Shown here one piece after another: positions 10,065 to 35,218 of a stretch of DNA of 64,000 bases. The stretch is from Sphingobium lactosutens DS20. GTDB lineage: Bacteria > Pseudomonadota > Alphaproteobacteria > Sphingomonadales > Sphingomonadaceae. The stretch covers positions 1-64,000 of the forward strand of contig NZ_ATDP01000109.1 of assembly GCF_000445105.1 (NCBI RefSeq), in the 5' to 3' direction. Below the pieces are notes generated by a model. The model saw only the letters and a program-made list of their open reading frames with translations, made no database searches and had not been told where the DNA came from. The position numbers were made by a program, and so were the translations under genes. The number at the start of each line of letters is the position of its first letter. The stretch's first letter is position 1.

Positions 10065-10074
10065 GTCAGGTCTC

Positions 10075-18845: not shown

Positions 18846-18895
18846 GGTGGATCATCTGATCGTTGGGTGAAGATGTCATTCCTGTTCGTTGTTGG

Positions 18896-19636
18896 TCAAG
18901 CGGCTTGAGCCGGGAGATTCCGGCGCATGGACTCGCCGGAGAGTTCGAGGCGATGAGCGTTGTGAACGAGGCGGTCCAAGATGGCGTCGGCGTAGGTCGG
19001 ATCTCCGATCAGATCGAACCAGCGGGCCACAGGAAGTTGGCTGGTCACGAGGGTTGAGCGACGGCCGTAGCGGTCTTCAAGGATCTCGAGCAGGTGGTGG
19101 CGGGCATTTCCGTCGAGCGGTTCAAGCCCCCAGTCGTCCAGGATCAGCAGATCGACCCTGCCAAGGCTCTTCATGCGTGCAGCGATGCGGCCGTCCCCTT
19201 TGGCCAGCGACAGGTCGTCGATCAATCGCGGCAGGCGCGTGTAGAGGACCGAGCGATTGTCGCGGCAGGCCTTGTGGCCGATCGCACAGGCAAGCCAGCT
19301 CTTGCCGACCCCTGCGGGGCCGATGATGGCCAGGTTCTCGTGGGCGGCGATCCAGTTTCCTTTGAGCAACGTTTCGAACAGCCGGCGGTCGAGCCCGCGC
19401 GCGCTGCGATAATCAACGTCTTCAGGCACCGCATGATGCCGCAACTTGGCATGACGCAGCCGAAGCGCGAGGCGCCGATCGTTGCGCCAGGTTGCTTCAT
19501 GATCGAGCAGCAGGGCCAGCCACTCGGCATGGCCGAGGCCTGCGGCGTCACCATTGCCGTCCAGTTCGGCAAAGGCATGGGCCATCCCGGTCAGCCCAAG
19601 CTGGTTCAGTTGATCAAGGGTTGGGTGTTTGAGCAT
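18896..19636 (-). CDS. istB: IS21 helper ATPase IstB (copy B)
   Basis: AAA+ ATPase of 246 residues. Walker A is IIGPAGVGKSWLA and Walker B is LLILDDWGLEPL; TSQLPVARWFD follows. The N-terminal helical region (LDQLNQLGLTGMAHAFAEL) is the IstB_IS21 N domain. It starts 11 bases after the istA stop. Intact; works with IstA in transposition. Confidence 0.95.
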   Translation of the reverse strand: MLKHPTLDQLNQLGLTGMAHAFAELDGNGDAAGLGHAEWLALLLDHEATWRNDRRLALRLRHAKLRHHAVPEDVDYRSARGLDRRLFETLLKGNWIAAHENLAIIGPAGVGKSWLACAIGHKACRDNRSVLYTRLPRLIDDLSLAKGDGRIAARMKSLGRVDLLILDDWGLEPLDGNARHHLLEILEDRYGRRSTLVTSQLPVARWFDLIGDPTYADAILDRLVHNAHRLELSGESMRRNLPAQAA

Positions 19637-19647
19637 CGTCGCTCCTC

Positions 19648-21195
19648 TCAGTGGTAATATTGGGAGCCCCGGATGTTGTCGTGCAGGATCGGCTCGCGTT
19701 CCGGGGCTTTGGACACGGGCACCTTGTCGAGCCCCTTTTCGAGGATCGATTTGACGGACGGGTAATTGCGCGCCTGGATCTCCAGCGCGCGCATCGCAGC
19801 AGCCTCAAGCCGATCGGCGCCGAAGCGTTTGGCGAGGCCGATAATACCAAGACACGAGCGGTAGCCCTGCTCGGGATGTGGTCGGTCCGCGATAATGCGC
19901 TCGACCAGCAGCGACAGCATCGGCCCGATCCGGGCAGCCTCTTCCCGGATTTTGGCCGGCGTCCATTCCAGATAGCGCCGGTGGCTCGAAGGCATATGCT
20001 CGGGCACCGTCGTATGCCGGCCATTGCCGCTGCCACGCATATGAACCGCGATGCGCTCGCCGCCCAGGAAGATCTCGACGGTGCGCGCGGTGAAGCGGGC
20101 CTCGACCTCACGACGGGCGAAGCGATGTGGCACAGAGTAATGGTGATGATCGAGGGCGATATGGTAATCGAGCCCGACACGGCATCGCTTCCACTCCGCG
20201 TGCACCCAGGGCTCGGCGGGCAGCGGCTTGAGATTGGGCGCGTCGATTTCCTCGAACAACTGGCGGCGGGTGCGACCGAACTGGCGAAGAACCCGCGTCT
20301 CATTGAGATCGGCGAGGCACTCGGCGATAGCGGCGTTGAGCTCAGCCAGGCTGTAGAAGACACGGTTGCGCAGTCGGCCTAGCACCCAGCGCTCGACAAT
20401 GCCGACACAGGCTTCAACCTTCGCCTTATCGCGCGGCCTCCGGGGCCGCGCCGGCAATACGGCCGTCCCGTAATGACGGGCCATGTCATTGTAGCTGCGG
20501 TTCAGCATCGGATCGAAGTGGCAGGCCTTGATCACCGCGACCTTCGCGTTGTCGGGCACCAGCAACTGCGTGACGCCACCGAAGAAGGCGAAGGCGGCAT
20601 TGTGCCCCTCGATCCAGTCGGCGAACTGCTCGGTCCAGGTCGCACAAGCGAATGACAGGCTTGAGCCGCCCAGCACCGCGACGAACAGATGGGCGTCGCG
20701 GATCTCGCCGGTTCGGCGGTTGATCACGACGGGGACCGTGTCGCCCGCATAATCGACGAACAGCTTCTCGCCACCGGCATGGCTCTGACGCATCACCAGC
20801 GACAGCCGCCCCTCCCAGCGCCGGAACAGGTCACACCACCGGCTATAGCGATATCCGTCAGGCTGAGCGGCGATATACTCTTCCCACAGGACCTGGAGCG
20901 TCACGTGCTTTCGCTTCAGTTCGCGCGCCACCAACGACCAGTCCGGTTCCGGCTGCTTGCGGCGTCCGGGCTTCACGCCCGGAATGCCGTACAGCCTGGC
21001 CTCCAGCTCCGCTTCGGTCATGTCATCGGGAACCGGCCACGCAAGACCCGCCAGCCTCAGCCGCCTGATCGTGTCCCGAACAGTCGTTGGACCCACGCCT
21101 GTGCGTTCGCCGACAACTCGTGTGGAAAGCCCGGCATCCAGGCTCAAATGCAATATCTCGCGCACTTGGCGCATCGAAACCCTCCTCGTCGGCAT
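19648..21195 (-). CDS. istA: IS21 transposase IstA (copy B)
   Basis: Transposase of 515 residues. N-terminal helix-turn-helix LSTRVVGERTGVGPTTVRDTIRRL; DDE core with Asp in LFVDYAGDTVPV, Asp in VPDNAKVAV and Glu in KAKVEACVGIVERWVL; C-terminal DNA-binding part with LDYHIALDHHHYSVPHRF. ATG at 21195 has GGAGGA just upstream. The frame is intact, so copy B looks mobile. Confidence 0.95.
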   Translation of the reverse strand: MPTRRVSMRQVREILHLSLDAGLSTRVVGERTGVGPTTVRDTIRRLRLAGLAWPVPDDMTEAELEARLYGIPGVKPGRRKQPEPDWSLVARELKRKHVTLQVLWEEYIAAQPDGYRYSRWCDLFRRWEGRLSLVMRQSHAGGEKLFVDYAGDTVPVVINRRTGEIRDAHLFVAVLGGSSLSFACATWTEQFADWIEGHNAAFAFFGGVTQLLVPDNAKVAVIKACHFDPMLNRSYNDMARHYGTAVLPARPRRPRDKAKVEACVGIVERWVLGRLRNRVFYSLAELNAAIAECLADLNETRVLRQFGRTRRQLFEEIDAPNLKPLPAEPWVHAEWKRCRVGLDYHIALDHHHYSVPHRFARREVEARFTARTVEIFLGGERIAVHMRGSGNGRHTTVPEHMPSSHRRYLEWTPAKIREEAARIGPMLSLLVERIIADRPHPEQGYRSCLGIIGLAKRFGADRLEAAAMRALEIQARNYPSVKSILEKGLDKVPVSKAPEREPILHDNIRGSQYYH

Positions 21196-21260
21196 CCATT
21201 CCTCCGGTCGCTATGCGACCGTAGAAATGACCCAACGATCAGGTTCTCCACATCTCAAAC

Positions 21261-21378
21261 TGCGCGCGATCAGCTCGGAATACTGCGCGGACAATTCTCG
21301 GAACGCTGCGCGCGATCAATTCGGAAGCCCGCGCGCCATCAAATCGGAATGGTGCGCGCGATGACCTCGGAATCCGCA
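21261..21378 (-). repeat. Right iterated end repeats of IS21 copy B
   Basis: Five tandem units of about 23-24 bases with the core TGCGCGCGATCA and TCGGAAT, in inverted orientation to the three at the left end. The number of units differs between ends (three against five). Confidence 0.85.
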
Positions 21379-21386
21379 GCGATCGA
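21379..21386. repeat. Target-site duplication, right copy
   Basis: GCGATCGA directly after the element; identical to 18767-18774. Confidence 0.92.
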
Positions 21387-21975
21387 TTTGCGCAGCCGTC
21401 AGATCGTGTGGCAACGGCCGATGGGCTCGATAAAGGATTCCGTGCTGCCGGTTGGCATCAAATCTCCTCTGCCCATGCCGGTCGGCATGCCCACCCTGGG
21501 TGGTCCGATCAGTACGCGTTCCGGCATCACATTCTACGCGGGCACGCAGGACTTTTATCTTCGCGCACTCGATACGCGCACCGGTGAGGAGCTTTGGAAG
21601 GGGAGACTGCCCGTGGGAGCACAGGCAACCCCGATGACATATGTCTCGCCCAAGACCGGCAAGCAGTATGTCCTGGTTTCTGCGGGCGGCGCCCGTCTTT
21701 CGCCTAATCGTGGCGATTACATTATCGCATACGCCGTAACGAGGTGAGAATGTCGCTGTGGGGCGACCGGGAGGCAGCCCCTTAGCCATTAAATGCGTAA
21801 TCCAGAAAAGGCTGGCGAATAGGCGGCTGCCTATCGATCTAGATCAGTCTTGGCGAGGTGGAGCGCCGCGACGAATGGTAGGATTTTTAATCGCTTTTCG
21901 TATTTTCAATTAGTGCGGCCCCGCGATGATACCTACCCTATCCTGCAAAATGCTATTCTGCGAGAGGGACATGAG

Positions 21976-22980: not shown

Positions 22981-24075
22981 CTAGAATGACGTGATAACAC
23001 TGCGTGCTATGGCACCTTGCTTGAGCTCCTTATAGGCATCGTTAATTTCCGTGATGTTGATCTCGCGCGAGATCAGGTCATCGAGGTTGAGTTTCCCCTG
23101 GAGGTAGAGCTGGGCATACATAGGGATGTCGTGCTTGATGTTCGCCGATCCCATGTAGACGCCGCGGAGATCGACCTGGTTGGTCAGCAGATCAACCGTC
23201 ACATTGACGTCGATCGTCTTCATGGGTGAATGCACGCCGATGAGATATGCGCTGCCGCCCTTGCACGCCATCTTGATCGCCTGTTCCGACGTGGCCTTGA
23301 TGCCGACCACCTCAAATGCATGGTCGACCCCGCCTTCGATCAACATGCGCACCGCCTCCACGCTGTCACCAGCCGACGCATCGACAAAGTCGGTCGCGCC
23401 GAAGCGACGCGCCAGTTCCTCCTTTTTCGGCTGCATGTCGATGGCAATGATCCGCGCCGCTCCCGCCAGCTTGGCGCCCGAAATGACGTTGAGCCCGACA
23501 CCGCCGATGCCGATCACCGCGACCGTGTCCCCAGGACGCACGGCCGCGGTGTTGATGGCGGCGCCGGCGCCCGTGATGGTGCCGCAACCGAGCAGCGATG
23601 CCTGCGCGAAGGGGAGTTCCTTGGGTACCAGGGCCAGTTGGTTCTCATGCACCAAGGCGCGCTCGGCAAACGCCCCGGTACCGAAAACTTGCGTGACACC
23701 GGCTCCGTCCCGCGTCAGTCGATGCGCGTGGTCGGGATCGTCCCGCAGCGTTTCTTCGGGATGCGTGCACTGATAGGTGCGCCCGCCGATACAGGCCCGG
23801 CAATGGCCGCAAAACTGGATCAGCGACCCTACGACATGATCGCCTATCGCGAATTCCCGCACCTCCGGACCGATGGCGAGGACAACCCCTGCCAGTTCAT
23901 GCCCCAACACGGCGGGCAGCGGAACACCGAAATCCTGTTCGGCGAAATGCAGGTCCGAATGGCAGAGGCCCGATGCCTTGACCTCCACCAGAACTTCCCG
24001 CCCGCGCGGCGCATCGATCTCGATCTCCTCGATCTGGAACGTGCCATCGAGGCTATTGAGAATGGCGGCTTTCAT
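22981..24075 (-). CDS. Zinc-dependent alcohol dehydrogenase, class III-like
   Basis: Medium-chain dehydrogenase of 364 residues. Catalytic zinc residues in ASGLCHSDLHFAEQ and GHELAG, structural zinc Cys in CGHCRACIGGRTYQC, NAD loop VIGIGGVGLNVISGAKLAG and cofactor-end Asp in IIAIDMQ (favours NAD). The LLGCGTITGAGAAINTA segment is typical of the class III-like group. ATG at 24075. It is the last gene of the minus-strand run that begins with the TonB receptor at 33244, 19 bases after MmgE/PrpD, so it is likely co-transcribed. It presumably oxidises an alcohol intermediate; substrate unknown. Confidence 0.94.
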   Translation of the reverse strand: MKAAILNSLDGTFQIEEIEIDAPRGREVLVEVKASGLCHSDLHFAEQDFGVPLPAVLGHELAGVVLAIGPEVREFAIGDHVVGSLIQFCGHCRACIGGRTYQCTHPEETLRDDPDHAHRLTRDGAGVTQVFGTGAFAERALVHENQLALVPKELPFAQASLLGCGTITGAGAAINTAAVRPGDTVAVIGIGGVGLNVISGAKLAGAARIIAIDMQPKKEELARRFGATDFVDASAGDSVEAVRMLIEGGVDHAFEVVGIKATSEQAIKMACKGGSAYLIGVHSPMKTIDVNVTVDLLTNQVDLRGVYMGSANIKHDIPMYAQLYLQGKLNLDDLISREINITEINDAYKELKQGAIARSVITSF

Positions 24076-24094
24076 GATGTTCTCCTAGTCGGGT

Positions 24095-25522
24095 TCAAGC
24101 GGGATGAGAGGGGGTCAGGCAATCGACGATGCGGCGCATGTCATCGATCCGTTCCATGTCACGGCAAAGCCCGACAAGCATGTCCAGCTTGTCCGCCGGG
24201 AGCTGGACGGCGGCGAAAGGGGCGCAGCGGCGCAGCTTGCCCGCCAGATCGTCCCAGGTCATCGGGTTGCGCGTATGTCCCTTCACATAAGGGGTGACAT
24301 GGGTGAAACGGCGTCCATCGGAGAGTGTGATTGCGACCGTGAAGCCCTCGAACTGATCGGCATGATCGGGATCGGCGACGATATGCACCCGTCGCATCAG
24401 TTCGCGCCGCTCTGCATTCATGATCCGGTCAGGGTGCAGGTCCTCGAGGAAGAAACCACCGGTCATCGCGGCAGCGGCAATCGTATAGGGCGCGCTGAAC
24501 ATTGCCTCCGGCACGGAGCGCGGGTTCCATTTCGCCGCCGCCGGCTCGAATGTCATGCGTGCGCTCGTACTGCCGACGCAGTCGATGCGATCGATATCGC
24601 GCCAGTCCAGTCCCTCGCCTTGAATGATAGCAACCGTGCTGGCGATGAAGCTGTGGGTAAATTTACACGCGGAATAGGGCTTCATCGACAGCCCTCCGGC
24701 CAACTGCCAGTGGGTCCCCAGATCCTCGGTCAGCAATTCGGGCCGCACATCGTCCCACGCGACATGCCGCAATATGCCACTCGGCACGCCCTGGAATATG
24801 CCGCGCGGCGCCGTCACGCCGCGGCGGGTCAGCAGTACCGCCTTTACCGCCGTATCCCCGGCAAAGCTGTGCTGCACGCGCGCCATCTGCGTACCTTCAG
24901 AATATTTATTATATTCCGACATGCCATGGACAGTATAGGCCATACCTAACGCATTCCATGTTTCGTCGGCATCCAGGCCGAGGATACGCGCCACCGAAGC
25001 GGTTGCGCAGAGCGGCCCGTTCCATTCGCCTGGCATACCCCATGTCGTGTGGTAGCGCACAAGGTTCAGCGCTGCGCTGGCGCGCACGCCGACTTCAGCG
25101 CCTGTGACATAGGCAGTCAAAAAGTCCTTTCCGCTGACCGCTCCGTCTGCAATGCCCAGCACCGACAGCATGGCGGGCACATTCCATTCCGTCACATGAC
25201 CGCCGGTTTCATGCACATCGCCCATATCGATCGCGCGCGCCATTACGCCATTTGCAAAAGCAGCCATGGGAGCGGGTACCTGGTGCCCGTGTATCAGGAC
25301 GGTGGCTTGCGGCGCGCCGCCCCACTCGGCAACCTGGTCGGCAATGGCGGGGCAGACTTCCCAACCGGACCCCGCAACAGTGACCGCCAGCGTATCGAGG
25401 ATCGCACGCTTGGCCAGGTCGATCACCGGCACGGGAATGTCCTGATAGCGTGTCTCAGCCACCATCTTCGCCAAAGGTCCGGCAGGATCATGCTCGGGCA
25501 GGACAGGATTCTCGTGCTTCAT
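24095..25522 (-). CDS. MmgE/PrpD-family protein
   Basis: A 475-residue member of the family of 2-methylcitrate dehydratase and cis-aconitate decarboxylase; these remove water or carbon dioxide from tricarboxylic acids without a metal cofactor. Family marks are VIDLAKRAILDTLAVTVAGS, FANGVMARAIDMGDVHE (with the conserved Asp-xx-His pattern), AYVTGAEVGVRASAAL and LSMKPYSACKFTHSFIAST. The start at 25522 overlaps the stop of the preceding small gene as ATGA, so translation is coupled. No methylcitrate-cycle genes are nearby, so the acid it acts on is probably a pathway intermediate (inference). Confidence 0.92.
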   Translation of the reverse strand: MKHENPVLPEHDPAGPLAKMVAETRYQDIPVPVIDLAKRAILDTLAVTVAGSGWEVCPAIADQVAEWGGAPQATVLIHGHQVPAPMAAFANGVMARAIDMGDVHETGGHVTEWNVPAMLSVLGIADGAVSGKDFLTAYVTGAEVGVRASAALNLVRYHTTWGMPGEWNGPLCATASVARILGLDADETWNALGMAYTVHGMSEYNKYSEGTQMARVQHSFAGDTAVKAVLLTRRGVTAPRGIFQGVPSGILRHVAWDDVRPELLTEDLGTHWQLAGGLSMKPYSACKFTHSFIASTVAIIQGEGLDWRDIDRIDCVGSTSARMTFEPAAAKWNPRSVPEAMFSAPYTIAAAAMTGGFFLEDLHPDRIMNAERRELMRRVHIVADPDHADQFEGFTVAITLSDGRRFTHVTPYVKGHTRNPMTWDDLAGKLRRCAPFAAVQLPADKLDMLVGLCRDMERIDDMRRIVDCLTPSHPA

Positions 25523-26025
25523 GATACCATCATCGCAGGGATGTCGGGTAAATCCTGCCCGTCGGGGTCCAGCCCGGTAGCCGCGAACCATGTTCGCTCA
25601 CGTATCGATTGTGCCGCACCATAAGCCAGCACAGCATCTCGTGCGGCGGGCGCCAACGCGACCTTGCCGTCTTCGCCGAGGATGATCCGGTCGATCAGGC
25701 CGCCAAGGACCAGGATACCATGCTCGACCGCAGCCAGATCCCGCTTGTCGACCGCCTTCCCCGCCTCGATCGCCGCGGCCAGCTCCTCGACATAAAATGG
25801 ATCGACCGAAGGCAGCATCGCCTCTGCGAGCGCCACCATGGCATCGAAGGATCCCCCTTCGAACGCCGCAGCCCAGCGCCATTGCTCGCCAATCATCCGC
25901 AGATGGCCGATACACAGGCCGATCTGATCCTTTGCCAGCCGTTCGCGTGGGCCGAGCGCCGGCAGGACCACCTGTTCCAGCGACTTGACGATGTTGGCAA
26001 TGCGCAGGTCAATGCTTGGCAGCAT
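25519..26025 (-). CDS. Small LvaB-like protein (copy 2)
   Basis: A 168-residue, mostly helical protein beginning MLPSIDLRIANIVKSLEQVVLPALG and ending LAYGAAQSIRERTWFAATGLDPDG. It is a paralogue of the protein at 28189 (same start, same LxIGHLRMIGEQW-type segment and same RERTWF end). Its place directly after an APH-type kinase gene matches that of LvaB, the small partner needed by the kinase LvaA for 4-hydroxyacyl-CoA phosphorylation in Pseudomonas putida; I believe the family is DUF6285, from memory. It starts 3 bases after the kinase stop, with GGAAGG upstream. Confidence 0.75.
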   Translation of the reverse strand: MLPSIDLRIANIVKSLEQVVLPALGPRERLAKDQIGLCIGHLRMIGEQWRWAAAFEGGSFDAMVALAEAMLPSVDPFYVEELAAAIEAGKAVDKRDLAAVEHGILVLGGLIDRIILGEDGKVALAPAARDAVLAYGAAQSIRERTWFAATGLDPDGQDLPDIPAMMVS

Positions 26026-26028
26026 GGC

Positions 26029-27201
26029 TCAATCCTTCCCGATCAGCTGGACGATGTGGTGAAGGAAGACAGCGCCAGCCGATCCCAGCCAAGTCAGCAC
26101 CACTTCCTGATGATTATTGCTGGCGGCAGCTGCCCGCATCGCCTGTCCCAGGTCCATGACCGCGCATTTGTAGGCGTTGAGTACCTCGTAGTAGCGAAGC
26201 CTGGCCGGATCGATGACATTGCCGGACGCAGCCTCATACTGGGTAATGAAATCTTCGCGCGGCAGCAGGCCACTGACCAGAAAGACACCGTCATCACCCC
26301 AGGCGCCGAACAGCTTCTGCATGGTCCAGGCGATATCCTCGTGAAAGTCACCGATATGAGCCAGTTCCCAGTCCAGCACGGCTGTGAACCGTCCGCTCGG
26401 CTCCTCGAACAGGAAGTTGCCCATGCGCAGGTCGCCATGGACCAGCATCGGGGAATCGCACGGGGGGGCATTCTCACGCAGCCAGCGCTCCGCCAGCGTA
26501 ACGACGGGTACCGGCTCCACCAGGCAATCCCACCATACCTGCGACCACCAGTTGACCTGCCAGATCGCCGCCTGGTTGCTGTTGGGGCGCGGTGCGTCGA
26601 AATAGCGCAGGTTCGCGCTTGCCCAGTCGAACCGGTGGGTCGTCGCCAGCGCATCGACATATTGGGGCGCGAGCCGATCAATGAGCGCTCCCAGCCGACC
26701 GCCCATGCCCGACACGCCGGCGCTACCGCCCTCGCTGGGCTGGGTCACTCCGCCGACAAAACCAAGGATCACCGCAGGCTGTCCCAGCAGGTCTCCATCG
26801 GCGTCGAACCAGCGCACGGATGCCACGGGCATATGCTCGCGCATGACCATCTGGATCTCGCCCTCCCGACCGCGACAGGTCTGGGCGATCGCCTCCAACG
26901 GGTCCATGCGCAGAACCAGTCGCTCGCCTGTGCGGTCGCCCCGATGCGTGAGGGTAAAGGCGAACTGCTCTTTCGACGCGCCTCCAGACATGCGCTCGAC
27001 GTCGGTGACGGCAACGCCTCTCAGGTTCTTCGCAGCGAAAAACCCTTCCAGCATGGCCGTGACCTGGACATCGGATTTCGGCCGATAGGGTCCGGTGTCG
27101 CGGAGGCGGACGGTGCGTTCCAGCACATGGCGGATCCGCGGCTCCATTTCGGAGCGATCCCAGATGTCGACATCATCGCGGCCCGCGAGCGGCGTCCGCA
27201 T
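26029..27201 (-). CDS. APH-type kinase, LvaA/ACAD10-like (copy 2)
   Basis: Phosphotransferase of 390 residues with the aminoglycoside-phosphotransferase/choline-kinase fold. Nucleotide region around SGGASKEQFAFTL and GERLVLRMDP; catalytic loop LVHGDLRMGNFLFE (HGD-x4-N) and metal motif VLDWELAHIGD. The WQVNWWSQVWWD segment and the C terminus match the other copy closely (about 60 percent by eye). Related kinases (LvaA, the kinase part of ACAD10/11) phosphorylate 4-hydroxyacyl-CoA, so a hydroxyacid-CoA substrate is more likely than an antibiotic. The chosen ATG at 27201 follows GGGAGGA; one at 27222 overlaps the upstream gene. Confidence 0.9.
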   Translation of the reverse strand: MRTPLAGRDDVDIWDRSEMEPRIRHVLERTVRLRDTGPYRPKSDVQVTAMLEGFFAAKNLRGVAVTDVERMSGGASKEQFAFTLTHRGDRTGERLVLRMDPLEAIAQTCRGREGEIQMVMREHMPVASVRWFDADGDLLGQPAVILGFVGGVTQPSEGGSAGVSGMGGRLGALIDRLAPQYVDALATTHRFDWASANLRYFDAPRPNSNQAAIWQVNWWSQVWWDCLVEPVPVVTLAERWLRENAPPCDSPMLVHGDLRMGNFLFEEPSGRFTAVLDWELAHIGDFHEDIAWTMQKLFGAWGDDGVFLVSGLLPREDFITQYEAASGNVIDPARLRYYEVLNAYKCAVMDLGQAMRAAAASNNHQEVVLTWLGSAGAVFLHHIVQLIGKD

Positions 27202-27215
27202 GGTAGCGTCCTCCC

Positions 27216-28145
27216 TCACCATGCAAAGCGCTCGACATAGGGTGTCGCGAATTTCAGATAGTCGCGGTTCCAGCAGAACTCGCACCAGCCGGTGCCTTCC
27301 TCGCCATCGATCGTTGCGGTGACAACGGACTCGTTCAGCAGCACCACCGGGTCGAGATCCAGCTGATATTTGGCGAATGCCTTGCAATCGACGAAGACCG
27401 ATCGACCGTCCGTATCCGTCACGGTCACGCGAAAGCGATCGTGCATCATATCGGCATCGAAATCGATGTCGTAATCGACGCTCGCGACATGGCGCATCAC
27501 GCCGTCCTTGTAGAGATATCCCCGCGTTTCAACCTTGCCGAAGGACATCATCTCGAAGAAATGGACCGACACGCTTGGCGTCGTCGCATGGATCCACTTA
27601 TAATGCTGATTGAGGCCCCAGACACGCGGCCCCCAGCTATGGTCCCGGATCATGAAGTCGTTGAGCGGATAGTCGCGCCCATCGACACGCAAGTTGCCCT
27701 GAATGATGCCATGCTGTTCGGTGCGATCATCACCATAATAAGGCGGGTTGCCCTTGGGGTGGGAACTGAACGCATAGGGGGGATGGATCGCTTTCCACTG
27801 GCCTTCGAACTGGATACGGTCCCCGACCCAGCCCAGATCTATGGTCTTGAACGGTTCGCGCACTGCCATGAGCAGCGGACCGAAACGCCAGTCGTCAAAG
27901 TCCATGTCCGGCGGCACCATCTGCTCAATCTCTTCCTCGATCGGCGCCTCGAAGGCGGGGCCGAACAGGTGAAGACGACCCTTGGCATGGCCGTTGGCGC
28001 GTACAGTGGGATAGTAGAAGCCGGCGATACCATATTGCGGCAGTACGAACTGGTGCGTCGCCGATTCCCGGCCATCATCCGCCAGCTTGTGGCGATAGGC
28101 ATGCTCGACAGGGAAGGCGGCAAATTCTTTCGTGGTTTCCGGCAT
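27216..28145 (-). CDS. CrtC/AttH-like protein of unknown function (copy 2)
   Basis: A 309-residue protein, rich in beta strands, with RDHSWGPRVWG in the middle. That Asp-His plus WGPR pattern occurs in the two-lipocalin CrtC/AttH-type proteins (carotenoid hydratase and relatives); I think current names are DUF7064/DUF7065. No signal peptide. It is a distant paralogue of the protein at 29885: both share R-D-x-S-x-GPR-x-W, then QHY, then ID-x-x-ADxM and a matching C-terminal block. ATG at 28145 follows GGAGAGG. It heads the second copy of the three-gene module. Hydration or water removal on a hydrophobic substrate is possible but unproven. Confidence 0.75.
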   Translation of the reverse strand: MPETTKEFAAFPVEHAYRHKLADDGRESATHQFVLPQYGIAGFYYPTVRANGHAKGRLHLFGPAFEAPIEEEIEQMVPPDMDFDDWRFGPLLMAVREPFKTIDLGWVGDRIQFEGQWKAIHPPYAFSSHPKGNPPYYGDDRTEQHGIIQGNLRVDGRDYPLNDFMIRDHSWGPRVWGLNQHYKWIHATTPSVSVHFFEMMSFGKVETRGYLYKDGVMRHVASVDYDIDFDADMMHDRFRVTVTDTDGRSVFVDCKAFAKYQLDLDPVVLLNESVVTATIDGEEGTGWCEFCWNRDYLKFATPYVERFAW

Positions 28146-28188
28146 CTCTGGGTTCCTCTCCTTATCTCATTTTCCCCGGCCGCAGGCG

Positions 28189-28701
28189 TCAGTCCGCCCC
28201 TGCGAAAATCTCCTCAATAGCCGGAAGGTCGTCGCGATCGGGATCGAGCCGGTTCGCCTTGAACCAGGTCCGCTCACGCCGCGCGTGACGCAGACCATAA
28301 GCAAGCACCGCGTCGGTTACCGCCTGACTTAGCGGCGCATGATCATCGCCACCCAAAATGAAAGCATCGACGGCGTTTCCCAGGTCGATATTGGCTTGCT
28401 CTAACGCGGTGATGCTGACGCGATCGCATGCCTGTGCGGCAGCCAGCGCGTTCTCGAGCCGGGATGCGACCGATGCTGGGGCGTCGGACAAGAGTTCGCG
28501 CGCCAACCCGGCCAAATCATCGAGGCTTACCTGCTCGTAGAGCAGCGCGGATTTCCACTGGTCGCCCATCATCCGCAGATGACCGGCCACCAGCATCGCC
28601 TGATCCCGCGCCTGCCGCTGTTCGCGAGGCAACGCAGGCAGGATCACCTGTTCCAGTGCCTTGATCATGTTGGCGATGCGCAGGTCGATATTGGGTAGCA
28701 T
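28189..28701 (-). CDS. Small LvaB-like protein (copy 1)
   Basis: A 170-residue helical protein beginning MLPNIDLRIANMIKALEQVILPALP; paralogue of the 25519 gene (roughly 45 percent alike by eye). The acidic C terminus (DPDRDDLPAIEEIFAGAD) replaces the shorter tail of the other copy. GGGAGG lies at ideal distance before ATG 28701, and the kinase stop is only 3 bases upstream, so translation is coupled. Its likely role is as partner of the kinase, by analogy with LvaA/LvaB. Confidence 0.75.
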   Translation of the reverse strand: MLPNIDLRIANMIKALEQVILPALPREQRQARDQAMLVAGHLRMMGDQWKSALLYEQVSLDDLAGLARELLSDAPASVASRLENALAAAQACDRVSITALEQANIDLGNAVDAFILGGDDHAPLSQAVTDAVLAYGLRHARRERTWFKANRLDPDRDDLPAIEEIFAGAD

Positions 28702-28704
28702 GGA

Positions 28705-29883
28705 TCAAGCCTCCCTGATCAGCGTGACGAGTTGCTCGAGGAAGACGGCCCCGGCCGAGCCGAGCCATGTCAGGATGATATCCTGGTGGTTGTTGCTCTG
28801 CGTCGCGGCGCGCATCGCCTGGCCGAGGTCGATGACCGCGCACTTGTAAGCGTTCAGCACCTCATAATAGCGCAGCTTCACCGGATCGATGCGATTGCCG
28901 GAAGCCTCCTCATAGGCGCGAAAAAAGTCCCCGCGCGCAATGAGGCCGCAGACAAGGAAGTCGCCATCCTCCGTCCATGTCCCGAACAGCCGCTGGATGG
29001 CCCAGGCGATATCTTCATGGAAATCGCCGATATGGGCGAGCTCCCAATCAAGGACGGCGGTGAATTTTCCGCTCGGTTCTTCGAACATGAAATTGCCCAG
29101 CCGCAAGTCGCTATGTGTCATCACTGGGTGTTCGCACACCGGCGCATTCTCGCGCAGCCAGCGTTCGGCGTACGTGAGCAATGCCACCGGCTGAACCACG
29201 CCATCCCACCAGACTTGCGACCACCAGTTGACCTGCCAGATGGCGGCCTGGCGCGTGCCGGCTTGCGGCGCGGCATAGAAGGAAAGATCGGCACCCCGCC
29301 AGTCGAAGCGATGTACCTGTGCCAGGGCGTCGATAAACTGGGGGGTCAATTTGGCTGACCACTCGTCATAGCGTGTACCGATGCCCGAAAAGCCATGGCC
29401 GGTGCCCTGCGTGGGCTCGGTGACGCCGAGCACGAAGCCCAGGATGATCGCGGGCTGGCCCATTATCTCTCCATCGGCATCAACGCTGCGTACCGACGCG
29501 ACCGGCAATGTCCCGACAAAGGCCTGATGGATCTGCGCCTCGCGGCCGCGGCAGGTCTGGGAGATTGCCTCCAACGGGTCCATCCGCAGGACAAGCCGTT
29601 CGCCCGTTTCATCTTCGCCGTGACGCAAAGTGAAGGCGAACTGCTCCTTCGAAGCCCCCCCTGCCAGGCGGAACACGTCGGAGATGGTGACTTTTTCCAG
29701 TCCCTCGGCCGTGAAGTAGCGCGTGAGCATGGCGACCACTTCTTCGTCCGATTTCGCGGCGTAAGGACCTTTCGCGCGATCGCGTACCGTCCGGTCGAGA
29801 ATTTCCCGGATTCGCGGCTCCATGTCGTCGCGGTCCCAGATGTCAATGCCGTCCACGACCGGCATGTGGAGAATGTCGCTCAT
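28705..29883 (-). CDS. APH-type kinase, LvaA/ACAD10-like (copy 1)
   Basis: Kinase of 392 residues, close paralogue of the one at 26029. N-terminal DGIDIWDRDDMEPRIREIL matches DDVDIWDRSEMEPRIRHVL of the other copy. Catalytic loop MTHSDLRLGNFMFE: here His-Ser-Asp replaces His-Gly-Asp, leaving the catalytic Asp and the Asn in place. Metal motif VLDWELAHIGD. ATG at 29883 begins one base after the stop of the upstream gene. By family it should phosphorylate a hydroxyl, most likely on a hydroxyacyl-CoA. Confidence 0.9.
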   Translation of the reverse strand: MSDILHMPVVDGIDIWDRDDMEPRIREILDRTVRDRAKGPYAAKSDEEVVAMLTRYFTAEGLEKVTISDVFRLAGGASKEQFAFTLRHGEDETGERLVLRMDPLEAISQTCRGREAQIHQAFVGTLPVASVRSVDADGEIMGQPAIILGFVLGVTEPTQGTGHGFSGIGTRYDEWSAKLTPQFIDALAQVHRFDWRGADLSFYAAPQAGTRQAAIWQVNWWSQVWWDGVVQPVALLTYAERWLRENAPVCEHPVMTHSDLRLGNFMFEEPSGKFTAVLDWELAHIGDFHEDIAWAIQRLFGTWTEDGDFLVCGLIARGDFFRAYEEASGNRIDPVKLRYYEVLNAYKCAVIDLGQAMRAATQSNNHQDIILTWLGSAGAVFLEQLVTLIREA

Positions 29884-29884
29884 G

Positions 29885-30817
29885 TCAGTTGCCATTGCCT
29901 TCCCAGGGGAACCGGAAACCGCCCTCCCCCATGCCGTAGCCGATGGTCCCATCGCTCAGCCGGTACTCCATCATCTGTTCGACCATCACGAAGGTGTCGA
30001 AGGGAAATTGCCAGCGAAACAGCGGCTTGGCCGTGAATTCCCACAGACGATCATCTTCGTCCCACACCTTCCAGTGGACATGACGGAAGCCCATCTCGTC
30101 GGCCTCATAGTCGATAACTTCCTCGACCTTGCCGATATGATGCCAGCGTTCGCCGTCGTGCAGAATCTTCTGATAGCTGTCGCCATGTTCGGTGATGGCG
30201 TGGACGGCGACGCAGGACATGCCATTGTCGAAGATCGGCCAGGCCAGGCGATAATGCTGCACCCCTGCCCAGTTACGCGGACCACAGCTGATGTCACGGA
30301 AACCCGCGTCGTCGATCTCGATGATTTCGCCGCCGCGCACGCGGACCGTACCGGTCACGTCGCAGGCGCCCTCCAGATGGATGAAGGCAAGCTCGCGGGC
30401 GATCGCATCGTCGCTGCCCTCGCTAGGCACAATGCTGTCACCCATCGCAAAGCGCTGGTTCCACACGAGGTCGACGCCGAAATCCTCTGTATCGATCGTG
30501 ATGCGGCACGCCTGGAGCGGCTGGACGGCTTCCAGGCGCACACCCGCTACCGTCACCCCGCCCTCGGGACGGTCGCTTGTATAGGGGAGGTGCATGTTCA
30601 GCCGTGTGAACAGCGGCTTTCCATCCTTGAAGAATATGGCAAAACCATTGGTTTCTCCCATATTCTCCATGAAGCCGAAGCGGATGAAGCCGCCGAGCTT
30701 CGCGTTGCGATCGTAAAAATTGAAATAGTAGCTCTGGCTCCATTTCGGGATGGCCGGATTGGGTATGTGACGTTCGCAATTTTCAGTCATATAAGCGTTG
30801 GTCAGCTCGGTCATCAT
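29885..30817 (-). CDS. CrtC/AttH-like protein of unknown function (copy 1)
   Basis: A 310-residue beta-rich protein with RDISCGPRNWAGVQHY at the place where the other copy has RDHSWGPRVWGLNQHY; the central His is changed to Ile here. The N terminus (IPKWSQSYYFNFYDRNAKLGGFIRFGFM) is typical of the first lipocalin-like half. No signal peptide. First gene after the TonB receptor and first of the duplicated module. The start at 30817 is tentative: two Met codons are adjacent and GAGGG is very close. Function unknown. Confidence 0.75.
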   Translation of the reverse strand: MMTELTNAYMTENCERHIPNPAIPKWSQSYYFNFYDRNAKLGGFIRFGFMENMGETNGFAIFFKDGKPLFTRLNMHLPYTSDRPEGGVTVAGVRLEAVQPLQACRITIDTEDFGVDLVWNQRFAMGDSIVPSEGSDDAIARELAFIHLEGACDVTGTVRVRGGEIIEIDDAGFRDISCGPRNWAGVQHYRLAWPIFDNGMSCVAVHAITEHGDSYQKILHDGERWHHIGKVEEVIDYEADEMGFRHVHWKVWDEDDRLWEFTAKPLFRWQFPFDTFVMVEQMMEYRLSDGTIGYGMGEGGFRFPWEGNGN

Positions 30818-30840
30818 GCCCTCATTTCATGCTTGGACGA

Positions 30841-30865
30841 TGCGGCCGCCATGAAGACGGCCGCA
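30841..30865 (-). terminator. Stem-loop between TonB receptor 2 and downstream genes
   Basis: TGCGGCCG (30841-30848) pairs with CGGCCGCA (30858-30865), with a 9-base loop. It lies just past the receptor stop at 30872 and has no T-run, so it would act as a weak attenuator or an RNA-stability hairpin and not as a full stop. Confidence 0.5.
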
Positions 30866-30871
30866 CCCAGA

Positions 30872-33244
30872 TCAGTTGAAATTGAACCCCAATGTTACGC
30901 CGTAGGTCGCAGGCCGCCCGGCGAAGCGCGCAGAGCTGTCATTGGCGGGAATTACGTTGGTCCAGTAGTATTCATTGAAGATGTTTTTGCCCCACAGGCT
31001 AACGCGCCAGCGATCGCCGTCGGAAACATAGCCGATGCGGGCATCCACGGTCGCGTAGCCGTCGATCTTGTAAATGTGATCAACACCCGGCTTCAGGATC
31101 GTGGCCGGCGACACCGGGAAGGTGATCCGGCGACCGCCCAGCGTCGCGTCGGACGCGCTGCGGCCGGTTACCGTGAAGCCGATGAACGGCGATCCGCCAT
31201 TGGGCATGCGAACCTTGTAATCGACATTGAGCGAGCCAGACCATTTCGGCGTGAAGGGCAGCGGGTCGCCCCGGAAGTCATCAGCCGCACCAATGACATT
31301 GACGCCACTGTAGCGCTGCACCTTGGAATCCAGGAAGGTGCCCGCGGCGGTGATCGTCAACCCTTCGGTGGGGCGAAGCGTGATGTCCGCCTCCGCGCCC
31401 TGAATGCGTGATTTAGGGACATTGACCAGCACGTCGAGGATGCCGAAGATCGGATCAGGCGTCTTGCCGCGAATCTGCTTGTCGCGATAGTCATAGTAGA
31501 AGGCAGCGAGGTTCAGGCCGACCTTGCGGTCGAACAATTGCGTCTTTACGCCCGCCTCATAGGCCGTAACCGATTCCTGTGTTACCGGTGACAGGGCCGC
31601 GTAGGTCGCAGCGGCCAGACTGGGGAACGAACCCGCCTTGTAGCCGCGCGAGGCATTGGCATAGATCAATGTCTGCGGCGTCACCTGATAGTCGATGCCG
31701 GCGCGCCAGGATACATTGTCCTGCTTGAGCGTCCGTACATAGGGCTCGCCCGGCGTGTTGGTCTCGTTCAGCGAATAGCAGTCGGTCTGCCCGATAGGCG
31801 TGAAGGGCACGGTGCTCAGCAACGAGCCCAACAGGTTGAACAGATCCGCAACATTGCCGTCGCCCGCGGCATAGCCGCAGATATTTGCGTTGTTGCGGCT
31901 CTGCGTATAACGCGCCGCAGCCTTTAGCGTCAGCTCCTCGGTCAGTTTATATTCGGCATTGCCGAAGAATGCGTAATTCTCGATCTTCTGCTTATTGGTG
32001 ACACCGCTGGCGTTGATGTACAGATTGTCGGGATTATAATTGGTGCTGTCGATGTAGCGCAGGATCTGGTTCTCGAATGTTGTGCTCTTCTCGTAGTTGG
32101 CACCCACGATCCACCGGAATGTGCTGGCCTGGTCGTTCGCCAGCCGCAGTTCCTGGTTGAACGAGTGGATGTACCCGTCATTCTTCTCCAGATCGAAGAC
32201 GATGAGGCTCATGCCATCGCCATCTGTCACCTGATCCTGCTTGTAGTCGTCATAGGACGTCAGCGAAGTCAGCGTAAGATTATCGGTCAGATCGATATCC
32301 GTGCGGAGGGCCGCCTGGAAGAATTTCCGATCCGCGCGCGGCCTGAGTGCTCCAGTCGACCAGTCGGCTGCCCGTGCGTTATCGCGCGGAAAGGGATAGG
32401 CCAGCAGCGCGGGCGAGGCATAGGCCGGAATTTGTCCGAACTTGAGAACCAGCTGCTGCGCCTGAGGATCGGACTTGTCGCGCCAGCCGTTGACGTTCAG
32501 TGAGAAACGGACCGTGTCGGCAGGATTCCAGTCGAGTAGAAGGCGACCAGCATAATAATTCTGTTCGCCCAACTTATCATCGCGCGTGTAACTCTTTTGC
32601 CAATCGTCCGAATGGAGTGCCGTTCCGGCGAGCCGGAAGCGCAGATTGTCCGTGACGGGACCACTGATGAAGGCATTGCCATCGATCTGATTGAACCGCC
32701 CGTAGCTGATGTCACCGCCGGCTTCGAAGCTGCCGGTGGGTTTGGCTGCAATATAGTTTATCGCCCCGCCCGTGCTGTTCTGACCGAAGAGTGTTCCTTG
32801 CGGTCCCTTCAGCACCTCGACCCTTTCAAGGTCGAATGCGGTGTGGCTCGCCATCACCGGGAATGGCAGCGGCGTCTGATCAAGATAGACGCTGACCGCC
32901 GGATAGACGCCCAGCGAACTCTCATTGAAACCCACGCCGCGTAGCGTGAAGATCGGCGTATTTGCGGTACTCGATGCGAAGGCAAGGCCGGGTACCACGC
33001 TCGCAATATCCTCAAGCGAGGTGACCTTACGATCTTGCAAGGCCTCTCCCGAGACAGCCGTGATGCTAAGCCCTACCTTGTTGATATTCTCCTGCCGCTT
33101 GTTAGCCGTGACGACAATGTCGGCAGAGTCGCTGATATCGGCTTGCGGCGCGCCAGCTTGCGTTTGCTGCGCGAACGCTGGCGACTCTGTTAACAGGCAC
33201 GCGAGACTTACTGATGCGAGTAACGCGCCATATTGCATTCCCAT
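30872..33244 (-). CDS. TonB-dependent outer-membrane receptor 2
   Basis: Receptor of 790 residues. Signal peptide MGMQYGALLASVSLACLLTESPAFAQ, TonB-box region SADIVVTANKRQENINKVG, plug with VERVEVLKGPQGTLFGQNSTGGAINYI, barrel ending VTLGFNFN. Close relative of receptor 1 along its length (shared SVSVYLDQTPLPF / RDDKLGEQNYYAGRLLLDW-type segments). ATG at 33244 has GGAGGGG upstream. It leads the operon with the duplicated kinase modules, so its ligand is probably their substrate or a precursor. Confidence 0.96.
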   Translation of the reverse strand: MGMQYGALLASVSLACLLTESPAFAQQTQAGAPQADISDSADIVVTANKRQENINKVGLSITAVSGEALQDRKVTSLEDIASVVPGLAFASSTANTPIFTLRGVGFNESSLGVYPAVSVYLDQTPLPFPVMASHTAFDLERVEVLKGPQGTLFGQNSTGGAINYIAAKPTGSFEAGGDISYGRFNQIDGNAFISGPVTDNLRFRLAGTALHSDDWQKSYTRDDKLGEQNYYAGRLLLDWNPADTVRFSLNVNGWRDKSDPQAQQLVLKFGQIPAYASPALLAYPFPRDNARAADWSTGALRPRADRKFFQAALRTDIDLTDNLTLTSLTSYDDYKQDQVTDGDGMSLIVFDLEKNDGYIHSFNQELRLANDQASTFRWIVGANYEKSTTFENQILRYIDSTNYNPDNLYINASGVTNKQKIENYAFFGNAEYKLTEELTLKAAARYTQSRNNANICGYAAGDGNVADLFNLLGSLLSTVPFTPIGQTDCYSLNETNTPGEPYVRTLKQDNVSWRAGIDYQVTPQTLIYANASRGYKAGSFPSLAAATYAALSPVTQESVTAYEAGVKTQLFDRKVGLNLAAFYYDYRDKQIRGKTPDPIFGILDVLVNVPKSRIQGAEADITLRPTEGLTITAAGTFLDSKVQRYSGVNVIGAADDFRGDPLPFTPKWSGSLNVDYKVRMPNGGSPFIGFTVTGRSASDATLGGRRITFPVSPATILKPGVDHIYKIDGYATVDARIGYVSDGDRWRVSLWGKNIFNEYYWTNVIPANDSSARFAGRPATYGVTLGFNFN

Positions 33245-34021
33245 AATCCCCTCCAACATTATATTGTTTCATCAGGCGCTTAGCTTTTTTTGTTGCTGCG
33301 CCTTTCTTATATTTATGATGACTACATTGCGCCGGATCGGCAGCTATCTCTCGCTTCACAATCGAACGATCCGGAGGGTGTAAGTCGATTTGCTGCCGAG
33401 ATCGGCATTGGAGTTTCGACGGCGGAACCATCGGTTCCATCGGTGCAGATCTAAACCAAACCTTTTGCCAATGACTGGAAGAGCGCAGCATAAGGGCAAC
33501 CATCGCCACCGCCTGTAGCAGGAAGAGATTGCGCTCAGCGATGGCAACACGGTCCATATATCGCGGTCACAACGTCGCCATAGGACTCCCCCTCAGCCTT
33601 GCCACTTACGGACAGTTACGTGTTGGATGCTTGCAACCAACTTAATCGCGCAAGCCGAAAAGCGTCAAATATAATTCGGTCGAACCATTATAAGACGGAT
33701 GGATTTTGAGAGCATATAAGCCGCTGTGATAGCTAGATAATTTCAGAGCCGTCCCTAAAAATGAATACGGACTTGATGTTTGAATAGGATGGCAGATGAC
33801 GATTTTCCGGGCGTCATCCTAAATCAACGTGGCACCGGCAGCCGCTTGACGCCATATCCTACGGCGCGACGGCGACCGTCGATAATTGCAGGGGCATGAT
33901 GCGGATGTAAGATCGGACGAGCCTGCATCATTTGTCCAGCGAAGAGCCCATAGCCCCCCGCGGCTTCACGACGTGGTAGGCCGTTCACCACCGAGCAACA
34001 GACACCCAAACGGCGCACCAA
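33245..34021. other. Long leader/intergenic stretch before receptor 2
   Basis: About 780 bases between the receptor start and the MFS stop. It holds a GntR-type operator at 33675-33689 and a short inverted repeat GGAACC-ATC-GGTTCC at 33424-33438. A 65-codon minus frame (33824-34021) begins with TTG right after the MFS stop; its end (IIDGRRRAVGYGVKRLPVPR) reads naturally but matches nothing I know. No RNA gene recognised. Confidence 0.45.
33675..33689. promoter_or_regulatory. GntR-type operator upstream of TonB receptor 2
   Basis: On the minus strand AATGGT-TCG-ACCGAA, with T and A continuing the palindrome outside. It is about 430 bases before the receptor start, which implies a long leader or an unseen small gene. 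Confidence 0.5.
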
Positions 34022-35218
34022 TCAATCGGAGAGGGAATGGCGCCGCGCAATGAGGAAAAATCCTTGGGCAAGTGCTGCGCTCGCCAGCAACGTTATCGCA
34101 GCGGCACCGCCAGGATTGGAACCAAAGCCGACCGAGGCTGCAGCTGCGGCTCCCACAACCATCTGAAAGAAGCCATAAAGGCCGGAAGCGGATCCTGCCA
34201 TGTCGGGCCTGATTGCCGTCGCCTGTGCCAGCGCGGCGGGTCCCGCCAGTCCAACGCCACATGTGTAGAAAAACATCAGCATCGTGACGAGAAGAGCGGA
34301 TGCCAGATCGAACATCATGACGATGCAAAGCGCGGTCGCAAAGACCGCACAGAGCGCGTGACCCAAGGCGAGAAGCCGCTGCGTGTGCAAGGTCGATGCG
34401 AGGCGGGACGCCATGAAGCTGCCGACCCAGGCGCCGATGACGACGATTGCGAGGCAGGCACCCGTCACTTGCGCCGACTGATTGAACTCATGTTGATACA
34501 GGAATGGCGCCGCCGCGATAAACGCATACCAGCTCGTCGTTACACATCCGCCACCCAGGGCATATCCCAGAAAGCTACGCGATCGCGCAAGCGCAGCATA
34601 ATGGAGAGCGATATTGCCGCGCTGCCCCCCTGCCCTGTTCGTTTCCTGGAGTACGAAAAGCACCGAAAGAAAGGCCACACCTCCCAATAGCGCAAGCGCG
34701 AGGAGGACGGCACGCCATCCAAAGGCAGCCGCCACGATGCCTCCGATCAATGGTCCAATCCCTGGCCCAACCAGGATCGCAAGGTTCAAGCGGGCGAGAT
34801 CGCGAGCCGCCTGGGAATCCATGCTCACATCGCGCACGATGGCACGAGCGATCACCATGCCCGAGCATCCGCCAAGCGCTTGCGCAAGGCGCGCCGCGAT
34901 CAGGACATCCGAAGAACCGGCCATAGCGGCGACCAAGCCAGATATGATGTAAACAAAGATTCCACCAAGCAAGACAGGCCGCCTGCCGAAACGATCGGCC
35001 ATTGGGCCATGAACCAGTTGGCCAACGGCGAGGCCCCAAACATAGACGCTGATGCTGAGTTGCATCTGCGCGGGCGTGGCCCTGAGATCCGCTACCGCCA
35101 ACGCCAGAGCGGGCGCGAAAATATGGATCCCCAGCGTCCCGCACAGTGTGATCGTTCCGAGTAGCCAAAGAGGAGGGCGGGCGTTTGACGCACCTTCAAC
35201 AGTCGATGACGTAACCAT
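34022..35218 (-). CDS. MFS transporter of the Bcr/CflA type
   Basis: Inner-membrane major-facilitator protein, 398 residues with 12 predicted membrane helices. Motif A is GPMADRFGRRPVLLGG between helices 2 and 3, and motif C is GPGIGPLIGG in helix 5 (typical of drug:proton antiporters of the DHA1 group). It could export toxic intermediates or excess substrate. It is the last gene of the minus-strand run TonB receptor 3, SDR, Rieske oxygenase, MFS. ATG at 35218 has only a weak ribosome site. Confidence 0.9.
   Translation of the reverse strand: MVTSSTVEGASNARPPLWLLGTITLCGTLGIHIFAPALALAVADLRATPAQMQLSISVYVWGLAVGQLVHGPMADRFGRRPVLLGGIFVYIISGLVAAMAGSSDVLIAARLAQALGGCSGMVIARAIVRDVSMDSQAARDLARLNLAILVGPGIGPLIGGIVAAAFGWRAVLLALALLGGVAFLSVLFVLQETNRAGGQRGNIALHYAALARSRSFLGYALGGGCVTTSWYAFIAAAPFLYQHEFNQSAQVTGACLAIVVIGAWVGSFMASRLASTLHTQRLLALGHALCAVFATALCIVMMFDLASALLVTMLMFFYTCGVGLAGPAALAQATAIRPDMAGSASGLYGFFQMVVGAAAAASVGFGSNPGGAAAITLLASAALAQGFFLIARRHSLSD

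Follow-up and report, generated by a model that had tools for sequence, protein, structure and literature searches.

Doubled kinase-lyase gene cassettes of Sphingobium lactosutens DS20, candidates for the dehydration of terpenoid alcohols

Tertiary alcohols block ordinary oxidation, and a gene run of Sphingobium lactosutens DS20 raises the question of how a bacterium might remove such a hydroxyl group. We analysed a window of 64,000 nucleotides (the whole stretch, positions 1 to 64,000 of contig NZ_ATDP01000109.1, assembly GCF_000445105.1), in which six minus-strand genes form two consecutive copies of one order: a lyase homologue, an APH-type kinase and a small helical protein. We read them, with moderate confidence, as kinase-lyase dehydration cassettes placed in a putative terpenoid-alcohol island.

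All six genes are intact, without internal stops. From upstream to downstream, copy A consists of lyase A (29885-30817; Pfam DUF7065/DUF7064, Rv3169-like), kinase A (28705-29895; Pfam APH, E 2.5e-20) and small protein A (28189-28701; 170 amino acids), and copy B of lyase B (27216-28145; Pfam DUF7064, E 1.6e-25), kinase B (26029-27201; Pfam APH, E 3.2e-25) and small protein B (25519-26025; 168 amino acids). The kinases are of the small-molecule type, and the lyases are candidate phospho-alcohol lyases. In both copies the small gene begins 3 bases past the kinase stop (spacers 28702-28704 in A and 26026-26028 in B). An ATG is available to kinase A at 29895, so that this gene overlaps the 3' end of lyase A, and kinase B has an ATG at 27201, preceded by a purine-rich stretch. 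Between the copies, the kinases are 66% identical over 379 residues, the small proteins 47.5% over 162 residues and the lyases 28.7%, over 150 residues only. The six-gene layout, the 3-base gaps and this ranking of likeness had all been described in a sequence-only reading of the locus, and all of them held. Lyases A and B are the only DUF7064 genes that we found in this genome, and kinases A and B the only kinases of their family at E≤1e-30.

The lyases had been labelled CrtC/AttH-like. When they were scanned against Pfam (hmmscan, E≤1), neither matched the CrtC family model, the listed families being DUF7064, DUF7065 and one chance hit; a carotenoid CrtC function was rejected on this ground. 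Lyase A matched DUF7064 (E 4.3e-11) and DUF7065 (E 4.8e-11), and both lyases matched NCBIfam Rv3169_fam far below its cut-off (49-51 versus 150 bits). A profile of 31 rows, made of the two window lyases and 29 relatives, retrieved 25-phosphosteroid lyase (25-PSL) from the PDB with E 4.1e-11 for entry 9fzn and 1.2e-9 for 9g4c; the sole remaining row at E≤1 was unrelated (E 0.83), and no AttH or Diels-Alderase chain was listed at that threshold. The AlphaFold2 model of lyase B (mean predicted local distance difference test, pLDDT, 87.2) gave the same enzyme as the top row in VIA-align (9fzn, Z 25.9, root-mean-square deviation 3.0, 271 residues aligned, 17% identity over the structural alignment). 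Three 25-PSL entries led the list (Z 25.9, 25.8 and 25.7), followed by AttH 2ich (Z 25.1) and then by pericyclases and kievitone hydratase (Z 21-23). Rows within 1 Z were counted as tied; fold alone therefore cannot separate 25-PSL from AttH, and it is the sequence profile that does.

Asp168, the aspartate of a DxSxGxR motif, is invariant across the 31 lyase rows. In the printed alignments 9fzn has Asp at the corresponding place, and 9g4c, the 25-PSL entry that holds phosphate and desmost-1,4-diene-3-one, has Asn; we infer that the Asn of 9g4c is a deliberate active-site variant, and the motif Asp would be catalytic. Judged from profile and predicted fold together, the CrtC-like proteins are most likely relatives of 25-PSL and the phosphate-eliminating partners in the cassettes. 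The accessible text of a 2024 paper terms 25-PSL a putative lyase (PMC11061730).

As for the kinases, the catalytic motifs HxDxRxGN and DWE were invariant across 7 aligned relatives. A PDB search returned 3ats/3att (which we take to be Rv3168), 9o56, 3dxp, ACAD11 and 9fsg/9ft5/9fu5 as solved relatives, and the window kinases matched 3ats at E 4e-15 and ACAD11 at E 5e-7 and 1.2e-8. Since no solved relative stands out, the substrate is not readable from the kinase sequence.

Neither small protein of the window matched a Pfam family at E≤1, and small protein A had no NCBIfam match at E≤1. The AlphaFold2 model of small protein A (pLDDT 92.4) is all-helical, with six helices, and Foldseek found no fold relative for it in the PDB at E≤0.001 (best E 0.67). 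A profile of the small family gave 23 PDB rows at E≤10, headed by a designed helix bundle (E 0.0007), which we treated as a chance resemblance between helical proteins. The sequence-only reading had compared these proteins to LvaB, which presumably belongs to DUF6285. That family (PF19802) was absent among the families listed (25 of 29) for 48 small-protein members, window pair included; hhalign gave a probability of 30% for small family against DUF6285, and the small-protein model hit one DUF6285 protein (L047 in our numbering of loci) weakly, at 13 bits and E 0.0022 in a tiny set (hmmsearch). LvaB membership was dropped as a stated fact, and descent of the small proteins from DUF6285 or LvaB is unproven. 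DUF6285 proteins themselves adjoin an APH kinase, or are fused C-terminally to it, at 21 of 21 fetched loci (L046-L066), which represent 16 distinct genes in 15 of 118 genomes of the order.

The small protein is rare, being present in 5 of 296 genomes of the order Sphingomonadales and, by profile, in 3 of 240 genomes of the class Alphaproteobacteria, own genome counted in both. In a survey begun from the small protein, a kinase adjoined it at 7 of 7 places (window pair included), and, in loci retrieved mostly via the kinase, 48 of 51 small-protein matches had a same-strand kinase no more than 300 bp away. Because of this linkage and of the analogy with DUF6285 and its APH kinases, the small protein is likely a partner of the kinase.

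We then asked how the three genes are arranged elsewhere. A scan with seven kinases yielded 35 named kinase loci (L010-L012, on the same contigs as L071 and L073, were left out of the distance counts at 300 bp and 1.5 kb and of the trees described below). A lyase was found in the same gene run as the kinase, or directly beside it, in 22 of the 35, and 18 of these 22 show the order lyase-kinase-small on one strand; of the other four, two read lyase-small-kinase, one is a lyase-kinase pair at a contig end and one has the small gene on the opposite strand. Their hosts are Sphingobium, Novosphingobium, Brevundimonas, Paracoccus, Pseudomonas borbori, gammaproteobacterial metagenome-assembled genomes (MAGs) and Nocardia, and the full order is also plasmid-borne in Sphingomonas sp. 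MM-1, Rhodococcus ruber and R. aetherivorans. The linkage counts rest mostly on loci retrieved by way of the kinase, a choice biased towards kinase neighbours. Two counts are free of this bias: the 7 of 7 places started from the small protein, and the genes chosen by the Pfam DUF7064 model alone, 14 of 29 of which have a kinase within 1.5 kb. The doubled order is intact in 5 of the 35 kinase loci (Sphingobium sp. TCM1, S. psychrophilum, Sphingobium sp. C100, S. cupriresistens and MAG GS6), so that the three-gene order does recur in other genomes. Among named relatives in the fetched set, TCM1 comes closest to the region, its six proteins being 87-99% identical. Sphingobium sp. Ant17 has the doubled order with kinase A split over two frames, and Novosphingobium sp. 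B1 a remnant of it. As the doubled order recurs among these loci, the six-gene arrangement is not due to chance.

Some of the fetched records deserve mention for other reasons. Plasmid pSA1 of Novosphingobium resinovorum SA1 (L148, L149) holds six kinase-small pairs and five lyases at about 104-174 kb of the record, with a 52% identical CYP108-like cytochrome P450 at 86.5 kb; this super-cluster may serve substrates carrying several hydroxyls. On two Rhodococcus plasmids (L103, L104) a second phosphotransferase gene follows the lyase-kinase-small set, and in L082 an EcKL-like kinase adjoins a kinase-small pair. The MAG behind L085 and L086 is labelled Klebsiella pneumoniae, probably wrongly; its kinases are close to those of environmental gammaproteobacterial MAGs. 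In NZ_CP130956.1 (L150-L156), six lyase matches are mirror-paired (22246/1317222, 281224/1058244 and 349221/990247, each sum being the length plus 1), and this 1.34 Mb linear record therefore resembles an inverted palindrome, which may be an artefact of assembly.

The locus had been described as a tandem duplication, and the kinases and small proteins are indeed close paralogues; the lyases, however, seem to have parted much earlier. In the lyase tree, A and B each form a starred clade; their branches are long (1.58 and 1.3 changes per column), and the two clades join each other, under midpoint rooting, with a support of 99. Pseudomonas borbori and an Alteromonadaceae MAG fall within clade A. 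In the kinase tree, the kinases of these same two hosts lie outside a clade (98 by the Shimodaira-Hasegawa-like approximate likelihood-ratio test, SH-aLRT) within which A and B join. The lyase split therefore looks older than the kinase split, and a simple tandem duplication of all three genes was rejected on the comparison of the two trees. From these trees, the doubled cassette looks like a mosaic in which kinase and small gene would have been copied after the lyases had parted. Both trees come from quick searches with SH-aLRT support only; the lyase tree carries a warning of long branches meeting. In the kinase tree one very long row (L084_3556) was retained, and L080 and L087 are flagged for unusual letter composition; the age argument leans on these two rows. 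In L097, too, two unlike lyases lie around a single kinase, and in L105 they form a tandem pair.

The run extends on both sides of the span first described (25519-30817), all its genes being on the minus strand. At its head, as the sequence-only reading had noted, stands a TonB-dependent outer-membrane receptor (30872-33259; Pfam TonB_dep_Rec, E 3.9e-45), 54 bases upstream of lyase A. Downstream (22981-25522), a gene for an MmgE/PrpD-family protein (24095-25522; Pfam MmgE_PrpD_N, E 2.5e-45) overlaps small B by 4 bases and is followed by the final gene, for a Zn-dependent alcohol dehydrogenase (22981-24075; Pfam ADH_N, E 8.7e-26) that matches the NDMA-dependent alcohol dehydrogenase subfamily of NCBIfam below its cut-off. 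Nine loci have a lyase with 66% or more identity to lyase B, and both genes come next in all 9. No MmgE/PrpD gene was seen in three loci with an A-type lyase alone (L074, L080, L087), with the distant lyase B relatives of L097 and L105 (36%), or, in the stretch fetched, with the 56% relative on pSA1.

At 8.5-16 kb of the window lies a second group of catabolic genes. It contains a P450 (12609-13910, minus strand) related to P450terp, that is CYP108A1 (phmmer against 8euh/1cpt, E about 1e-165), with 245 identities over 425 query residues. Members of a P450 subfamily share more than 55% identity, and at 57.6% identity to P450terp the window P450 falls within CYP108A. It is adjoined by a second TonB-dependent receptor (10132-12507, minus; it shares 83% identity with the receptor that is linked to the P450 in Sphingobium sp. 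C100, L071), beyond which lies an aldehyde dehydrogenase gene (8556-10109, minus; 85% identical to the Aldedh-family protein of L071) that is linked with P450 and cassettes in relatives; beside the P450 on the other side are a Zn-alcohol dehydrogenase (14126-15226, plus; Pfam ADH_N, E 5.6e-23) and a MerR-family regulator (15216-15986, minus; Pfam MerR_1, E 1.1e-14), a MerR gene being near the P450 also in L071, L073, L136 and L145-L147. Sphingobium sp. C100 carries MerR, P450, TonB receptor, aldehyde dehydrogenase, cassette A, cassette B, MmgE/PrpD and alcohol dehydrogenase, and the window holds the same parts, with a pyrroloquinoline quinone (PQQ) dehydrogenase, an IS21 element and a phosphatase gene standing between the P450-side genes and the cassettes. 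The gene for the PQQ-dependent alcohol dehydrogenase (16751-21747) is broken by the IS21-type element (istB 18896-19636, istA 19648-21195), its N part ending at 18859 and its C part lying within 20689-21747. Genes for a major facilitator superfamily (MFS) transporter, a GMC oxidoreductase, an aldehyde dehydrogenase, LysR, an acyl-CoA dehydrogenase, a CoA transferase and GntR occupy 42-51 kb, and several of them accompany the P450 in other sphingomonads.

Six named cassette loci (L068-L071, L073, L075) hold a P450 82-85% identical to that of the window. On plasmids of Rhodococcus ruber and R. opacus, P450s with 52-55% identity to it are found close to a lyase-kinase-small set. The neighbouring P450 of R. 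ruber is nearest to P450tol and then to P450terp; behind the set of R. opacus VOC-14 come an aldehyde dehydrogenase, a GMC oxidoreductase and the 55% P450. Rhodococcus sp. USK10 has a 54% P450. Within the order, the set is present in 3 of 4 genomes with an 82-100% identical P450, compared with 3 of 296 when counted by the small protein; two of the three genomes belong to one genus, and the cases are therefore not independent.

From gene content, homology, predicted fold, conserved residues and conserved linkage, we infer the following course of reactions. The APH-type kinase, aided by the small protein, would use ATP to convert a tertiary alcohol into its phosphate ester; the lyase would bind this ester and expel phosphate, leaving a C=C bond, with the Asp of DxSxGxR serving for proton removal or phosphate placement. 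P450 and the alcohol and aldehyde dehydrogenases would oxidise C7, and the CoA transferase and acyl-CoA dehydrogenase could pass the resulting acid into beta-oxidation-like steps. The cassettes would thereby remove the tertiary hydroxyl of a terpenoid alcohol, for example alpha-terpineol or its 7-oxidised products, and let degradation continue. That phosphorylation precedes loss of the hydroxyl, as had been proposed, and that two such cassettes are present, are both supported; ATP-dependent dehydration is a fairly likely chemistry. The two lyases probably act on different intermediates or yield different alkenes. Because the island combines a P450terp-like P450 with alcohol and aldehyde dehydrogenases, we tentatively name the tertiary hydroxyl of a p-menthane-type terpenoid alcohol as the target, at chances that we would place slightly under even. 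Bolder, and in our estimate somewhat doubtful, is the generalisation that an undescribed cassette of kinase, phospholyase and helical partner, widespread from sphingomonads to Rhodococcus, opens tertiary terpenoid alcohols via phosphate esters and supplies a missing step of alpha-terpineol-type catabolism downstream of P450terp, one kinase lineage serving two unlike lyases that give different alkenes.

A number of observations weigh against this interpretation. As single phmmer queries against the PDB, lyase A reached 25-PSL (9fzn) at E 0.0098 only and lyase B matched no sequence at E≤10; AttH ties with 25-PSL in fold, the link resting on profile and fold combined. The kinases match no named steroid kinase better than they match 3ats or ACAD11. 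In 13 of the 35 kinase loci, kinase and small protein have no clear lyase (one of these, L093, begins 0.4 kb before the kinase), so the three genes are not always found together, and at 15 of the 29 DUF7064 loci no kinase lies within 1.5 kb. P450 and cassettes are about 12 kb apart within the window, and L072 combines a 66% P450 with kinase and small protein and no lyase. The congener G263 has the P450 (83-84%), TonB receptor, aldehyde and alcohol dehydrogenases and MerR, but searches there for a lyase (E≤0.001), a kinase (E≤1e-30) and a small protein of this kind found none; likewise, no lyase or kinase was found on the P450-island plasmid records, the only records searched, of Novosphingobium sp. 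KACC 22771, Croceibacterium atlanticum and Croceicoccus marinus. The P450s of these four cassette-free islands are 76-84% identical to that of the window, and their existence means that the P450 product is usable without the cassettes or that the substrates differ. The wider P450 kind is common (156 of 396 genomes of the order at E≤1e-80), and among the three loci opened with a 50-52% P450, L138 has lyases and a kinase while L139 and L140 have no cassette genes. The cassettes are thus an addition to the P450 island and not an obligatory part of it. They may let it take hydroxylated substrates as well, which would agree with a dehydration role without proving it. The cassette-free P450terp-like islands at L136/L137, L145, L146 and L147 carry MerR and TonB genes.

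Three other explanations have to be set beside kinase-lyase dehydration of a terpenoid alcohol. The kinase and small protein might, like LvaA/LvaB, phosphorylate a 4-hydroxyacyl-CoA, from which an acyl-CoA dehydrogenase encoded elsewhere would remove the phosphate, the CrtC-like protein having another role such as hydration. The ACAD11 matches of the kinases, the 13 loci with a small protein and no clear lyase and an acyl-CoA dehydrogenase gene at 48145-49332 agree with this, as does the binding of LvaA by the 12 kDa LvaB described in the available part of PMC6692424. That dehydrogenase gene, however, is about 17 kb from lyase A, on the opposite strand, and the same gene occurs in the kinase-free islands L136 and L147; the lyase is homologous to a deposited phosphosteroid lyase and accompanies the kinase in 22 of 35 loci, and the small protein lacks a secure DUF6285 link (hhalign 30%). 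We regard this explanation as unlikely, and think much the same of a module acting on steroid or triterpenoid side chains, in which tertiary hydroxyls of a large isoprenoid taken up through TonB receptors would be dehydrated. The nearest solved lyase does act on a C25 phosphosteroid, the window has several TonB receptors, and its P450 matches a reconstructed CYP125 ancestor (E 2e-91) and natural CYP125/CYP142 chains (E about 1e-53 to 1e-46), but it is far nearer to P450terp (E about 1e-165). No gene specific to steroid-ring breakdown was recognised among the scanned genes of the window, to which this search was confined; Pfam names may fail to reveal such a gene, and two Rieske oxygenases are present there.

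Inactivation or detoxification, whereby the kinases would phosphorylate a toxic alcohol or antibiotic and the lyase turn it into a harmless alkene, seems to us very improbable. The APH family includes antibiotic kinases, and a Bcr/CflA-type efflux MFS gene lies upstream (34022-35218); yet the NCBIfam antibiotic-kinase models all scored far below their cut-offs (at most 39 bits versus at least 200), and P450, aldehyde and alcohol dehydrogenases, CoA transferase, acyl-CoA dehydrogenase and TonB receptors form a catabolic setting.

As far as our searches reach, three features are new: the cassette of lyase, kinase and small gene arranged like an operon, its presence in two copies with unlike lyases, and its association with an island of P450terp type. 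In the literature searched, which did not cover subscription journals, we found nothing on a kinase or lyase in terpineol catabolism, nor on loss of the terpineol 8-hydroxyl beyond the P450 step. In anaerobic cholesterol degradation, a tertiary alcohol has been described to undergo phosphorylation followed by elimination. If our interpretation is true, terpenoid degraders possess a mobile dehydration cassette with a partner protein, carried on plasmids of Sphingomonas, Novosphingobium and Rhodococcus; DUF7064/DUF7065 and genes filed as phosphotransferases gain a testable role, enzymes become available for making alkenes from alcohols, and how bacteria lose the terpineol 8-hydroxyl becomes directly testable.

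Among known systems, one for comparison is Rv3168/Rv3169 of Mycobacterium tuberculosis, whose genes are presumably adjacent; the window kinases match 3ats, and the lyases match Rv3169_fam at 49-51 of 150 bits. With the CrtC hydratase/AttH group the lyases share a fold (2ich, Z 25.1 for lyase B), their family being DUF7064/DUF7065 instead. LvaA/LvaB/LvaC of Pseudomonas putida and ACAD10/ACAD11 likewise use an APH-type kinase and phosphorylation before elimination, and LvaB is likewise a small protein working with the kinase (accessible text of PMC6692424 and PMC12440821). The same sources assign elimination in the lva system to the acyl-CoA dehydrogenase LvaC, acting on CoA esters, whereas a Pfam scan of 22981-33259 found no acyl-CoA dehydrogenase; LvaB is a 12 kDa protein, and the window small proteins, of 168-170 amino acids, have no secured DUF6285 sequence link. 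The analogy first drawn with LvaA/LvaB thus stands for the kinase and perhaps for the place of the small protein, but not for the elimination step.

P450terp, to which the window P450 is 57.6% identical over 425 residues, converts the tertiary alcohol alpha-terpineol into 7-hydroxyterpineol, according to the available part of PMC7794910. The nearest chemical precedent is Sterolibacterium denitrificans, where a 25-hydroxysteroid kinase phosphorylates a tertiary alcohol and loss of phosphate gives an alkene (accessible portions of PMC8449060 and PMC7411048, and of PMC11061730). The claim that no described system has this make-up therefore needs dividing: the chemistry is known from the Sterolibacterium pair, but the portion of PMC8449060 at hand places no lyase candidate near the kinase gene and mentions no small partner. 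Both systems would perform a two-step ATP-dependent dehydration with kinase and lyase, as predicted here for the window, and the lyases are homologous (profile E 4e-11, fold Z 25.9), with the motif Asp kept. Sterolibacterium works anaerobically on a steroid; in the window, kinase and lyase share one gene run, doubled, with a small helical protein and a P450 island.

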